A stretch of 64,000 nt of DNA from Gordonibacter massiliensis (ex Traore et al. 2017) (GTDB lineage: Bacteria > Actinomycetota > Coriobacteriia > Coriobacteriales > Eggerthellaceae), in NCBI GenBank assembly GCA_900170005.1, contig LT827128.1:2352168-2416167 (forward strand), given 5' to 3'. The notes beneath the pieces were generated by a model. The model saw nothing but the letters and a program-made list of their open reading frames with translations, was not told the origin of the DNA and did not search any database. A program made the translations under genes and the position numbers. Below are positions 20,730-63,447 of this stretch, piece after piece (within the stretch, counting starts at the first letter, position 1; each line of letters opens with the position of its first letter).

Positions 20730-20856
20730 GCCTCAGCACAAAATGACGGTTATGAACGATTTTCGCTTCTACGCGTAAAGTACGACCTGGGGTAATACCG
20801 CGATCACTTGAAAACAAGGGCCAAAATCATTCATAAGCGTCATTTTGTGCTGAGGC
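20730..20856. repeat. 127-bp element with ~36-bp terminal inverted repeats (MITE-like)
   Basis: The arms 20730-20766 and 20820-20856 are inverted copies with three mismatches; each starts GCCTCAGCACAAAATGACG from the outside. The 53-bp centre is unrelated and non-coding. It lies in the 350-bp gap between the divergent purB and MOSC genes. The size and ends suggest a miniature inverted-repeat element. The arms are AT-richer than the genome, and a regulatory dyad is the alternative. Confidence 0.65.
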
Positions 20857-21485: not shown

Positions 21486-21598
21486 GCTGAGCACACGATA
21501 GCTCGTCGTGCCGGAGGGCCGCGCAAGCTAGGCGTGCGGAAGCGAAGCAACCTGAAGAGCCGTATGGAACGCGAGGGGGAAGACGCTCCGGATAGACC

Positions 21599-21702
21599 GT
21601 AGGGGCGATCTCCTGATCGCCCGTTCCGGCGCAAGCCGGAAAACAGCCGGGGCTCGCGTCCTCGCGCTTCGCGCGAGCGGGCGCTCTGGAGAGCGCCCCT
21701 AC
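21599..21702. repeat. Interspersed palindromic element, family A, copy 1 (104 bp)
   Basis: The ends are GTAGGGGCGATCTCC and GGAGAGCGCCCCTAC. Inside are four hairpins in series, including TTCCGGC/GCCGGAA and CTCGCGC/GCGCGAG. The copy at 52124-52227 has the same length and order. The right-hand hairpin differs by a paired change (C/G here, A/T there) that keeps the stem. It lies in a 563-bp gap (21486-22048) that has no gene and also contains the family B repeat. Confidence 0.85.
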
Positions 21703-21880
21703 GGAGCCTATGGGACATGCGGCTTTCACCGCGGATGCCGTCGTTCGCGCCCGGGTTGCCCCCGACATGGCGAGCGCAGCGATGCCTGCCATGCGGCCGC
21801 AGGCCGCATAACGACCGCCCAGGTCGACCGCGCGGGAGCGAAGCGACCCGCGCTTCGCGCGCAGCGCGAAAACTGCCGCC

Positions 21881-52107: not shown

Positions 52108-52123
52108 CACCGCGGCCTTCTCC

Positions 52124-52227
52124 GTAGGGGCGATCTCCTGATCGCCCGTTCCGGCGAAGCCGGAAAAGCAACCGAGGGCCGCGTTCTCGCGCTCCGCGCG
52201 AGCGGGCGATCTGGAGATCGCCCCTAC
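52124..52227. repeat. Interspersed palindromic element, family A, copy 2 (104 bp)
   Basis: Same length and hairpin order as 21599-21702. The terminal repeats GTAGGGGCGATCTCC and GGAGATCGCCCCTAC are exact, with a 25-bp inverted arm that has one mismatch. Located between hypC and hypD, so it splits the hyp operon. Confidence 0.85.
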
Positions 52228-52286
52228 GAGGACGGCTCCCGGTCGAATCGACGTTCCCGGTGCGGCTTGGCGGGAACAGCACCCCG

Positions 52287-52576: not shown

Positions 52577-55261
52577 CTACGCGCCGCCCTCGGCAGCGCC
52601 CTCTTCGTTCGAGGCCCATGCTACCACAGCTTGGCCGAACGAGATGCACCCGTCGTTGGGCGGTAGATCGCGGTTGACGGCCACCGTGAAACCCGCACGC
52701 TCGAGCGCGGCCAGCGCGTGCTCCACGAGGTAGCGGTTCATGAACACGCCACCCGACAGCGCCACGACCTCGATGCCGTACACGGTGCGCGCCAGTTCCG
52801 CCGCCATGACGACGGCCTGAACGAACGCATTATGGAAGCGGCGCGCGATGACGGGAACGGGCACCCCGGCCGCCTTGTCGTCCAGCAGTGCCTTGAACGT
52901 GGGCGCCGCGTCGAACAGCACGACGGACGTGTCCTGCGCGGTGCTTTCGGCCGTAGCGGTGTTCTTGACCACCTCCATGGCATAACGCGAAGAGTCGTCA
53001 TCTTGGGTGGAGGCGCAGGATTGGTCTCTGTCATCCTGAACGGAGGCGCGAAGCGCCGTAGTCAAAGGATCTGCCGGCGCCGAAGATCCTTCGACTCCCT
53101 TCGGTCGCTCGGGATGACAAGAGGGCTGCTCCGCTCGCTCAGGATGGCAACAGGCATCGGATGTCATCGCGGCTTCCAAGAGGATGGCGGGCTCGCCTTC
53201 GTACGTGGGCTCGGCGCACACGCCCAGAAGCGCGCTGGCCGCGTCGAACAGGCGGCCGACCGACGAGGTCATGGGCGTGTTCAGCCCCCGATCGATCATC
53301 TGCTCGCACACGTCGGCCTGCTCGCCCAGCGCCATCAGCACATCGGCAGCTCCCGGATGCTCCAGTAAGTCGAACGCCCACAGCGCGCCGTAGGCCATGC
53401 GCAGGGGATGCTTCACGCACGCGGCGCCGCCCGGCATGGGCACGTAGGCGAAGTTCGCGAAGCGCTCGAACGCGCGCAGGTTGCTGATGAGCACTTCGCC
53501 GCCCCAGATGGCGCCGTCCACGCCGAAGCCCGTGCCGTCGAAGGCGATGCCGCACACCGGGCCGGACAAACCGTGCTCGCCCATAACCGAGACGACGTGC
53601 GCGTGGTGGTGCTGCACCTCCACAAGCGGCAGGCCACGCGTGCGGCTTTCCTCGTGCGCCCACTTCGACGTGAGGTACTCGGGGTGCAGGTCGCACGCCA
53701 AAAGGTCGGGCTTGATCTCGAACAACGTCTCGTAGCGGTTCTTCGCGTCGAGCCATGCGTCGTAGGTCTCGGCGTTCTCCATGTCGCCGATGTGCTGCGA
53801 CACGAACGCCTCGACGTCGCGCGTGAGCGCGAACGTGTTCTTCTGCTCGGGCCCGGTGGCGAAGATGGACACCTTGTCATCCTGAGCGGAGGCACGGGGC
53901 CGGTCTCTGTCATCCTGAGCGGAGGCGCGAAGCGCCGTAGTCGAAGGATCTGCCGGTGTTGAAGATCCTTCGACTCCCTTCGGTCGCTCAGGATGACAAA
54001 GGGACGGCATCGCCAACGGCAAAGGGGCGTAGCCGCGGGCGCGGCGGACGAACTGCACGGCCTCGCCCGCGCTGCCGGCGGCGATGACGCGCACCACCGA
54101 GTCGTCGTAGCGCGCGCGGATGGCGCGGTCGTGGCCGATGAACGCGTCGGCAACGCCCGCCAGCTTCCCGTAAGCGTCCTCGTCGTCGATGACGATGGGT
54201 TCGTCGTGGATGTTGCCCGAGGTCATCACCAACATGCCGCCGCCCCCGGCTTCGAGGAAGTCGTGCAGCAGCAAATGTTGCAGCGGGGTATAGGGCAGCA
54301 TGACGCCCAGCTCGGGCAGGCGGTCGGCCAGACCGGGGGCGAACTCCGCGTCAGAGCGCTTCTTCAGCAGCACGATGGGGCGTTGCGAGCCTTCCAAGAC
54401 CGCGGCCTCGGCGTCGTTCACCGCGCACACGCGACGCACGTCATCCGTGCTGGCGGCCATCACGGCGAACGCCTTGCCCTCGCGTCGCTTGCGGGCGCGC
54501 AGCTTCGCCATCGCCTCGGGGTTGTCCGCGTCGCACACCAAGTGGAAGCCGCCGAGGCCCTTCACGGCCACAATGCCGCCCGCCAGCAGCAGCTCCACGG
54601 CGCGCGCGAGGATGGCGTCGCTCTCCTCGCGCGTCGTGCCCCAGCTCACCGGGCCGAGAGGCGCTTCGATGTCGCCGCCCTCGTGCTCGCGCCAGCTGAT
54701 ATGGGGGCCGCACTCGAAGCAGGCGTCGGGCTGCGCGTGAAAGCGGCGATCGAGCGGGTCGCCGTACTCGCGGGCGCAGCGCTCGCACATGGGGAAGTCC
54801 TTCATCGACGTGCTCTTGCGATCGTAGGGCAGCTTCTCGATGATGGTGAAGCGCGGGCCGCAGTTCGTGCAGTTGATGAACGGATAGCGGTAGCGCCGGT
54901 CGTTGGGATTGAACAGCTCGCGCGCGCAGTCGTCGCACGTGGCCAAGTCGGGCGACACGAGGGTGGTCTTCTCCACGGCTCCGGCGTCGGAGAAGCGTAT
55001 CTCGAAGGTGTCGAAGTCCTCCAGCGGCACCTCTTTAAGCGTGATCTCCTCCACATGCGAGGCGGCCGGCGGGTTCTCGGACAGCTCGATGACGAACTCG
55101 TCGAGCAGCTTCGCCTCGGCCTCCGCATGGATGAACACGCCGTCGGTGGCGTTCAGGACCCATCCGTTGACCAGGTACTTCTTCGCCAAACGATAGACGA
55201 AGGGGCGGAAACCCACCCCTTGCACGATGCCTTTGACCTGTATGTCCATCGCTTCGATCAT
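52577..55261 (-). CDS. hypF: Hydrogenase maturation carbamoyltransferase HypF with two repeat-derived in-frame insertions
   Basis: 894 residues, against about 750-780 for ordinary HypF. Start at ATG 55259-55261 (GAGGTG upstream). Domains: acylphosphatase (GIVQGVGFRPFVYRLA), four CxxC zinc pairs (CDDC, CTNC, CERC, CFEC; residues ~105-190), YrdC-like domain (~205-410) and a Kae1-like domain (HHHAHVVSVMGEHGL; ~465-890). Two stretches are not HypF: residues ~422-462 and ~704-755, each starting CHPERPKGVEGSS-type and encoded by palindromic repeats found elsewhere in the window. They sit at the domain boundary and in a loop of the Kae1 domain and keep the frame open. HypF makes the thiocyanate precursor from carbamoyl phosphate for [NiFe]-hydrogenase. 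Confidence 0.95.
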   Translation of the reverse strand: MIEAMDIQVKGIVQGVGFRPFVYRLAKKYLVNGWVLNATDGVFIHAEAEAKLLDEFVIELSENPPAASHVEEITLKEVPLEDFDTFEIRFSDAGAVEKTTLVSPDLATCDDCARELFNPNDRRYRYPFINCTNCGPRFTIIEKLPYDRKSTSMKDFPMCERCAREYGDPLDRRFHAQPDACFECGPHISWREHEGGDIEAPLGPVSWGTTREESDAILARAVELLLAGGIVAVKGLGGFHLVCDADNPEAMAKLRARKRREGKAFAVMAASTDDVRRVCAVNDAEAAVLEGSQRPIVLLKKRSDAEFAPGLADRLPELGVMLPYTPLQHLLLHDFLEAGGGGMLVMTSGNIHDEPIVIDDEDAYGKLAGVADAFIGHDRAIRARYDDSVVRVIAAGSAGEAVQFVRRARGYAPLPLAMPSLCHPERPKGVEGSSTPADPSTTALRASAQDDRDRPRASAQDDKVSIFATGPEQKNTFALTRDVEAFVSQHIGDMENAETYDAWLDAKNRYETLFEIKPDLLACDLHPEYLTSKWAHEESRTRGLPLVEVQHHHAHVVSVMGEHGLSGPVCGIAFDGTGFGVDGAIWGGEVLISNLRAFERFANFAYVPMPGGAACVKHPLRMAYGALWAFDLLEHPGAADVLMALGEQADVCEQMIDRGLNTPMTSSVGRLFDAASALLGVCAEPTYEGEPAILLEAAMTSDACCHPERAEQPSCHPERPKGVEGSSAPADPLTTALRASVQDDRDQSCASTQDDDSSRYAMEVVKNTATAESTAQDTSVVLFDAAPTFKALLDDKAAGVPVPVIARRFHNAFVQAVVMAAELARTVYGIEVVALSGGVFMNRYLVEHALAALERAGFTVAVNRDLPPNDGCISFGQAVVAWASNEEGAAEGGA
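52996..53150. repeat. Family C palindromic repeat inside hypF, copy 2
   Basis: About 155 bp. Repeated module GTCATCCTGA(G/A)CGGAGGCGC with a palindromic partner GATCCTTCGACTCCCTTCGG...CTC(A/G)GGATGAC. Read in the hypF frame it gives a run starting CHPER and ending with QDD repeats. The left end has a degenerate extra module (GTCATCTTGGGTGGAGGCGC). Confidence 0.9.
53876..53998. repeat. Family C palindromic repeat inside hypF, copy 1
   Basis: About 123 bp (41 codons). Arms GTCATCCTGAGCGGAGGCGC and GCTCAGGATGAC flank a GATC-centred stem; the first 33-bp module is doubled. Located exactly between the YrdC and Kae1-like domains of hypF, in the sequence around PLPLAMP and FATGPEQKNTF. Confidence 0.9.
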
Positions 55262-58404: not shown

Positions 58405-58484
58405 GTAGGGCAAGGGCTCTGCCCTTGTCGCTCCATAGGCAGCGTTTCGGCAGGTCGACGGCAAGGGCAGAGCCCTTGCCCTAC
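58405..58484. repeat. 80-bp element with perfect 23-bp terminal inverted repeats
   Basis: The arms start GTAGGGCAAGGGCTCTGCCC and end CTTG; the 34-bp centre is unrelated. Each arm is itself a hairpin (CAAGGGC-tct-GCCCTTG). The same GTAGGG/CCCTAC ends and nested hairpins appear in family A, but the sequence is different. Located in a 451-bp gap (58235-58685) that has no gene. Confidence 0.8.
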
Positions 58485-60670: not shown

Positions 60671-60900
60671 GGATCCTTCGACTTCGCGTCTTGCGACGCT
60701 CCGCTCAGGATGACACAGGGGACGTCTTGCGGCGTTCCGTTCGGGATGACGTAAAGCGAGTCCCTCGGCGCGCACTCGGGATGGCGCAAGGGAGGTCTTC
60801 GGCCACGCCCAAGATGACGCAGGACAAAGCCTCCCGAGCGCTCAGGATGACTGAGCAGGCTGTCATCCTGAGCGACCGAAGGGAGTCGAAGGATCTTCGA
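60671..60900. repeat. Intergenic array of degenerate family C palindromic repeats
   Basis: About 230 bp. The short motif CTCAGGATGAC or its variants occurs about five times at 30-38-bp spacing (near 60703, 60738, 60776, 60811, 60841), and the array closes with an inverted unit (GTCATCCTGAGCGACCG...GGATCTTCG). It fills most of the 304-bp gap (60620-60923) between the phosphatase and dipeptidase genes. Similar modules lie inside hypF. Confidence 0.85.
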
Positions 60901-62536: not shown

Positions 62537-62686
62537 GTCATTCTGAGCCGAGCGCCGGAAGCCACCCATCTTGCCATCCTGAGCGGAGGCCGCAGGCCGC
62601 AGTCGAAGGATCTTCGATGACGTGGGGCTTACCGCGCCGAAGATCCTTCGACTGCGCTCCCTGCAGTCGCTCCGCTCAGGATGACA
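62537..62686. repeat. Intergenic family C palindromic repeat
   Basis: About 150 bp: an outer module (GTCATTCTGAGC) followed by an inverted pair, with arms CCATCCTGAGCGGAGGCCGC and GCTCCGCTCAGGATGAC around a GAAGGATCTTCG / CGAAGATCCTTC core. In the 444-bp gap (62337-62780) between pepV and the tRNA gene. Confidence 0.85.
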
Positions 62687-63018: not shown

Positions 63019-63306
63019 CTACGTCGTGATCGGCAGTTCCAAGTCCTTCACGGCCGCGTCGCTCAAGGTGAACTTGAGGGGCCGTTTCGAAACGACAGCA
63101 ACAAGGCCCCTCTCTTCCAGATCTTTCAGATACTTTCGAGCCGTCTGCGTGCTCACTTCCGCATGCGCCGACGCATCGCAGTACGACAGTGGAAATCCGC
63201 CGAAACGCACGAAAATGCGAGCAAAGTTGCGTTTCGAAACCTGCATTCGCAGCCACGCCTTCAAGCAATTCTTGAATTGCCTGTTCAGAGACTTAGTGCG
63301 TTGCAC
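63019..63306 (-). CDS. Short winged-helix protein, possibly truncated
   Basis: 95 residues. Residues ~38-90 look like a winged helix (YCDASAHAEVSTQTARKYLKDLEERGLVAVVSKRPLKFTLSDAA), as in the C-terminal DNA-binding part of larger ATP-binding or Fic-type regulators. Residues ~23-35 are encoded by one arm of an inverted repeat (63201-63236), whose partner is at 63338-63372, beyond the start. This suggests that the N-terminal part of a longer gene was lost and replaced by repeat DNA. Expression and function are uncertain. Confidence 0.5.
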   Translation of the reverse strand: MQRTKSLNRQFKNCLKAWLRMQVSKRNFARIFVRFGGFPLSYCDASAHAEVSTQTARKYLKDLEERGLVAVVSKRPLKFTLSDAAVKDLELPITT

Positions 63307-63372
63307 GACGAACGAGGCAGGGCATCTTCACCGCCCTGAAACGCAACATTGCTCGCATTTTCGTGCGTTTCG
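63201..63372. repeat. 35-36-bp inverted repeats across the start of the short winged-helix frame
   Basis: Arm CGAAACGCACGAAAATGCGA (with AGCAAAGTTGCGTTTCG after it) at 63201-63236 and its inverse at 63338-63372, one or two mismatches, 101 bp apart. The internal arm is translated in the frame 63019-63306; the outer arm is non-coding. Confidence 0.75.
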
Positions 63373-63447
63373 GGCATCCTCCACTGCCAAACCACCGTTG
63401 GCATGCACCCGGCCAGGATGGCAATGCGTTGGCTTGCGGAATGCCAC

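Follow-up and report, generated by a model that had tools for sequence, protein, structure and literature searches.

The Rickettsia palindromic elements RPE-1, RPE-4 and RPE-6 and their Wolbachia equivalents are palindromes of about 100–150 bp which occur between genes as well as in frame within conserved genes, the host proteins remaining functional (PMC2229807, PMC3733652). In-frame palindromic repeats were found first in Rickettsia and then in Wolbachia, and a survey of 2013 reported intragenic REPs in several other species, its text making no mention of Actinobacteria (PMC3733652). REPINs are inverted doublets of REP sequences with preferred spacer classes and predicted long hairpins (Bertels and Rainey 2011, PMC3116915). 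The CGTC-tagged REP superfamily has no known transposase, and some of its copies lie in genes (Di Nocera 2013, PMC3733652). Enterobacterial RU/ERIC are small repeats that can be read in frame within protein genes (Delihas 2007, PMC2759123).

A repeat family of Gordonibacter massiliensis resembles each of these in part. As the earlier note had suggested, it works like the RPEs in having intergenic and in-frame copies in conserved host genes, and its doublets of roughly 90–135 bp are close to the roughly 105–146 bp of RPEs. It differs from them in its host, a free-living gut actinobacterium of high GC content, in the fixed spacers of the doublets and in their reiterated heads. Its sequence is presumably different, and it is likened to RPEs by description rather than counted among them. 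With REPINs it shares over-represented inverted doublets, preferred spacer classes and single units alongside; REPINs, however, are extragenic and tied to a RAYT transposase, whereas here 17% of the repeat clusters lie in genes and no RAYT accompanies them. Its units start with TGTC, occasionally CGTC, and the stem starts with AT (ATCCT/AGGAT), which recalls the CGTC-tagged REPs, and no dedicated transposase was found for it either. Those REPs have an 8–9-bp stem, a 4–5-nt loop and a CCA tail, whereas the Gordonibacter unit is longer and composite, with an interrupted stem, a variable inner hairpin and a tail other than CCA. The likeness to RU/ERIC is again one of description, in-frame reading being common to both, while host group and element class differ (PMC2759123).

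The reading that is favoured here, with a probability of about 0.84, is that of a REPIN/RPE-like non-autonomous repeat family in Actinomycetota which is tolerated by proteins as a hydrophilic linker, HypF being predicted to keep working with two copies inside it. By analogy, this group of Eggerthellaceae would show the protein-tolerated behaviour of a putatively mobile repeat that is best known from Rickettsia. A search of the open-licence literature gave no description of this repeat from Gordonibacter or Eggerthellaceae, and the motif string gave unrelated papers only.

The repeat unit and its doublets

The unit consists of the head TGTCATCCTGAGCG, a small hairpin, and the tail GTCGAAGGATC. 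Its 12-mer core GTCATCCTGAGC occurs in 215 exact copies (117 + 98) in the 3.95-Mb genome, where the reversed pattern is found 0 times. The inner hairpin is variable, 81 distinct inner sequences being present among 134 exact units. The larger length classes that comprise several variants show longer stems for real copies than for chimeras made from two copies, for example 4.33 versus 3.06 bp at an inner length of 22, so pairing tends to persist while the stem sequence changes. Where units are adjacent, 48 of the 52 pairs are inverted doublets with the tags pointing outward. The spacers within doublets measure mostly 29–31 or 42–45 bp, and in many cases the outer head is repeated at a distance of about 30 or 36 bp. 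Full or single units are usually open in four of the six reading frames.

The window, that is the whole stretch of 64,000 nucleotides that was analysed, contains the repeat both within hypF and between genes. The intergenic occurrence had been noted earlier and was found again at 60672–60895, with a full unit at each end and a half-unit between them, and at 62572–62685, which is a doublet of the 29-bp spacer class. Three doublets were folded and yielded z scores from -6.7 to -11.2, the lowest value belonging to the intergenic doublet at 62572–62685. Rfam listed only a tRNA nearby.

The hypF gene and its two inserts

The hypF gene occupies 52577–55261 on the minus strand and encodes, in an open reading frame of 894 amino acids, the carbamoyltransferase of NiFe-hydrogenase maturation, as identified by TIGR00143, Pfam and Foldseek. 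The HypF equivalog model TIGR00143 (741 positions) matches the product at 732 bits, and five Pfam HypF domains are found in it; both kinds of match are interrupted where the surplus residues sit. A phmmer alignment to 3vth, the nearest solved HypF structure, breaks at residues 418/461 and 701/788 of the query, the 3vth side being nearly continuous at these places (394/397 and 630/652). That the surplus of this long HypF is made of an interspersed palindromic repeat, as had been claimed from the letters of the DNA, is borne out by the copy number of the core against its reversed control. This accounts for a part of the excess; what remains over an E. coli-type HypF is linker typical of the family.

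Insert 1 (53875–53998, minus strand) is an inverted doublet with one extra head half-repeat, read in frame. Motif positions place its first unit, from head to tail, at 53964–53998 on the minus strand, its second unit in the opposite orientation at 53908–53950 on the plus strand, with the tails facing each other across a 13-bp spacer, and the extra head at 53875–53888 on the plus strand, 33 bp (11 codons) from the outer head of the doublet. The encoded peptide is CHPERPKGVEGSSTPADPSTTALRASAQDDRDRPRASAQDD, and the site lies between the YrdC-like and the Kae1-like domain. Insert 2 (53029–53149, minus strand) is likewise an in-frame inverted doublet with an extra head half-repeat, its first unit being at 53085–53119 on the minus strand and its second at 53029–53071 on the plus strand, again with a 13-bp spacer; it is located in a loop of the second Kae1-like subdomain. 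The limits first given for the inserts, residues about 422–462 and 704–755, had the location right, the repeat DNA being slightly wider at residues about 420–463 and 704–755. RNA folding against dinucleotide shuffles gives z scores of -9.8 for insert 1 and -6.7 for insert 2.

The predicted structure of HypF has a pLDDT of about 90 across most of the core, and Foldseek ranks solved HypF structures highest among its matches, namely 3vti/3vth, 4g9i (T. kodakarensis) and 3tsp (E. coli). In the inserts the pLDDT falls to about 30 (residues 423–462) and about 32 (residues 702–754). The model thus predicts a normal HypF fold apart from two loops that are disordered, and the earlier placement of the inserts, in frame at a domain boundary and in a loop, agrees with these values and with the breaks in the 3vth alignment. 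All features of HypF are present, namely the acylphosphatase domain, the zinc fingers, the YrdC-like and Kae1-like domains and the invariant motifs. Many positions of the acylphosphatase, zinc-finger, YrdC and Kae1 parts do not vary among 24 aligned homologues, and the motifs are intact.

Both inserts are found in frame in the separately assembled Gordonibacter sp. 28C, with which genome G068 is equated here on the basis of a 100-base hypF match and equal length of the reading frame. HypF of another genus (G021) contains only insert 2, and that of a further Gordonibacter (G066) neither. This agreement across separate assemblies rules out an assembly artefact. The number of heads differs between G. 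massiliensis and 28C. Alignment with relatives that lack the inserts, as had been proposed, showed the sites to be empty (G066) or occupied by sequence unrelated to the repeat (G069 and others). Across the family both sites are linkers that differ in length, and long fillers rich in Ala, Ser, Pro and Glu occupy both of them in Rubneribacter, Gordonibacter An230, Enteroscipio and G069. At the place of insert 2 the Rubneribacter protein carries about 100 extra residues of a different peptide repeat (QEESAGQEEFA-like), and a third variable site is seen near residue 196 in G069 and Enteroscipio. In G. pamelaeae 7-10-1-b, hypF is split into two open reading frames of 318 and 598 amino acids in different frames, which is either a broken gene or a sequence error.

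The unrelated fillers give some substance to the notion that the two HypF sites are ordinary fast-evolving low-complexity linkers whose likeness to intergenic repeats is incidental. For the sites this description holds. Variable linkers explain why the sites tolerate extra sequence, not where the inserts came from, and for the origin of the G. massiliensis inserts the notion is refuted at the sequence level: their DNA matches the genome-wide repeat in heads, tails and inverted layout and folds strongly, so that of all readings considered it has the least credit. Scarcely better placed is the idea that the inserts have altered or inactivated HypF and that the gene is heading to a pseudogene, which the earlier note had set beside tolerance. 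An enzyme with two insertions of about 40–50 residues might well be affected, and an RPE-bearing guanylate kinase of Rickettsia is described in a passage of PMC2229807, which cites Abergel 2006, as having a changed substrate affinity. Against this, the HypF body shows a dN/dS of 0.113 (787 codons) since the split from 28C, which has both inserts, the motifs are invariant in the alignment, and the predicted fold is normal. Tolerance is therefore the half of the alternative that stood, no sign of inactivation having been seen in dN/dS, motifs or predicted fold, and HypF is inferred to be a working enzyme with two disordered loops, its activity being a prediction from sequence and model.

Unlikely, if a little less so, is retention of the inserts for a function of their own, either as mRNA hairpins that slow the ribosome at domain boundaries or as peptides that modulate the contact between HypE and HypF. 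Both inserts are kept in G. massiliensis and 28C, the nearest intergenic copies being present in one of the two only; stem pairing tends to be preserved while the stem sequence varies, and many inserts in this genome occupy positions between Pfam domains or beyond the last of them. Neutral inserts, however, would likewise survive in linkers, relatives devoid of any insert keep HypF, and the number of heads is not constant between the two species. The dN/dS of the inserts, 0.337 over 92 codons (a rough value in view of the palindrome and the alignment), suggests weak constraint on the peptide.

It had also been assumed that the two inserts arrived independently, and this is doubtful. Their DNA can be aligned over 138 nt and is 88% alike over 125 bp, and genome-wide each is the best match of the other (E = 9e-41, the next best being 1e-23). 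In addition, insert 1 of G. massiliensis is 95% identical over 96 bp to insert 2 of 28C. Local copying or exchange is thus likelier to relate the two inserts than two unrelated arrivals, as judged from these comparisons.

Copies in other genes and in related genomes

To list copies in coding frames, which went beyond what the earlier note could view, 131 stretches around repeat copies were sampled, amounting to 673 kb including the window and covering 203 of the 215 exact cores. A simple codon model, trained on 15 chosen open reading frames, served to call the genes; under it a gene-destroying copy would count as intergenic. Twenty-two of the 127 repeat clusters (17%) are in frame in 20 predicted genes, i.e., about 19 besides hypF, which has two. 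This is far below the coding density of about 82% (binomial p ~2e-55). The 105 intergenic clusters lie between two plus-strand genes in 41 cases, between two minus-strand genes in 33, between convergent genes in 20 and between divergent genes in 9, with 2 left unassigned.

Most of the carriers besides hypF can be recognised as conserved enzymes. By Pfam the carriers are an Lhr helicase, TatD, PcrA/UvrD, a ferredoxin-type protein, cytidylate kinase, CarA, IspF, a NarJ/TorD-type chaperone, MetH, Dxr, FolC, a molybdopterin oxidoreductase, an ABC ATPase, a POR/ferredoxin protein with two copies, CcmF and an AAA ATPase; two BcrAD-type activases (one judged by eye only) and PurL, named from its sequence, carry the repeat as well. 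Most of the copies within genes are found either between two Pfam domains or in a terminal tail; PcrA, Dxr and insert 2 of HypF are among the cases in which a copy falls within a domain model. In IspF and TatD the copy is close to the N-terminus and may lie ahead of the actual start. The reading frames used are CHPER in 12 cases, VILSG in 7, SAQDD in 3 and PLRMT in 0; the last figure has a chance of 0.002 if the four frames are equally likely, and a bias of the codon model towards certain frames may contribute to it. Doublets with 12–14-bp spacers lie in genes in 3 of 4 cases, as compared with 2 of 44 for longer spacers, three of those four sites being closely related copies.

When 140 genomes of the family were searched with a stricter two-ended pattern, 27 contained it, the reversed controls being all 0. 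Within Gordonibacter this pattern finds 139 units in G. massiliensis, 115 in 28C, 54 in G066 and 0 in two others, and counts are patchy within other single genera too (113 versus 7; 184 versus 0 and 0). The most repeat-rich genome seen is G021, with 237 units. Many repeat peptides are observed there within open frames of 300–1600 codons, and in-frame copies are probably common in that genome too.

28C and G069 both lack the Dxr copy at the corresponding position, their flanking Dxr sequence being 94% identical. None of the relatives aligned, 28C included, has the FolC copy. In PurL the copy is absent from 28C and G069, and G066 and G021 have it in the corresponding linker. Between genes, the 28C spacer orthologous to 60672–60895 has no repeat half-site and is about 130 bp shorter. 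These differences suggest that copies turn over between close species; they may also reflect recombination, horizontal transfer or loss instead of movement. The same linkers have either been filled repeatedly or retained their copies patchily. When insert boundaries in Dxr, FolC and PurL were checked against the empty sites for target-site duplications, they were blurred by divergence of the linkers.

Since about 20 genes, several of them for enzymes of core metabolism, are affected in a free-living gut actinobacterium whose close relatives lack some of the insertions, neutrality of the copies, their mobiliser and the building of linkers by selfish repeats become testable. For annotators, recurring CHPERS, VILSGG and SAQDD peptides in these genomes should be taken as repeat-derived.

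Mobilisation and other repeats of the window

A RAYT transposase was the obvious candidate for a mobiliser and was rejected as a demonstrated cause. No PF01797 gene is present in the G. massiliensis genome, its presence across the family shows no association with repeat number (4 of 8 repeat-rich versus 68 of 132 other genomes, p = 1), and the repeat does not flank Y1 genes in the sampled genomes G021, G068, G079, G066 and G056. A past loss from G. massiliensis is possible. Similar Y1 transposase-like genes (MARSARAVSESGYYHVVLRGNG, 260–316 amino acids) exist as single copies in G021, G068 and G056, with no repeat within about 3 kb.

For the favoured reading of a tolerated non-autonomous family, the course of events might be as follows. 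The repeat would be mobilised by an activity acting in trans, and a copy of suitable length could land in frame as single units are open in four of the six frames. Copies landing in structured protein would presumably be removed by selection, and those in disordered linkers and tails would survive and be read as hydrophilic filler. The two variable-length linkers of HypF would by this route each have come to hold a doublet, the inserts being putatively translated and neutral. A more far-reaching proposal is that an Eggerthellaceae lineage harbours a coding-competent repeat population, with four open frames and with 12–14-bp-spacer doublets mainly in genes, which repeatedly enters the same tolerant linkers of conserved enzymes in several species and acts as a linker-length generator mobilised by a non-RAYT enzyme. 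This is conceivable and at present rather doubtful.

Other repeats were also encountered. Long imperfect inverted repeats lie between genes at 20730–20856 (37-nt arms, 92%) and 63187–63386 (49-nt arms, 86%), both apparently not multicopy in the stretches fetched. Two other palindromic repeat families with GTAG tags (GTAGGGGCGATC and GTAGGGCAAGGGC) have 14 tags each in the 673 kb, and all 28 are intergenic. In the window GTAG-tagged repeats are located at 21597–21706, 52115–52236 and 58405–58484, with one copy in the spacer upstream of hypD.
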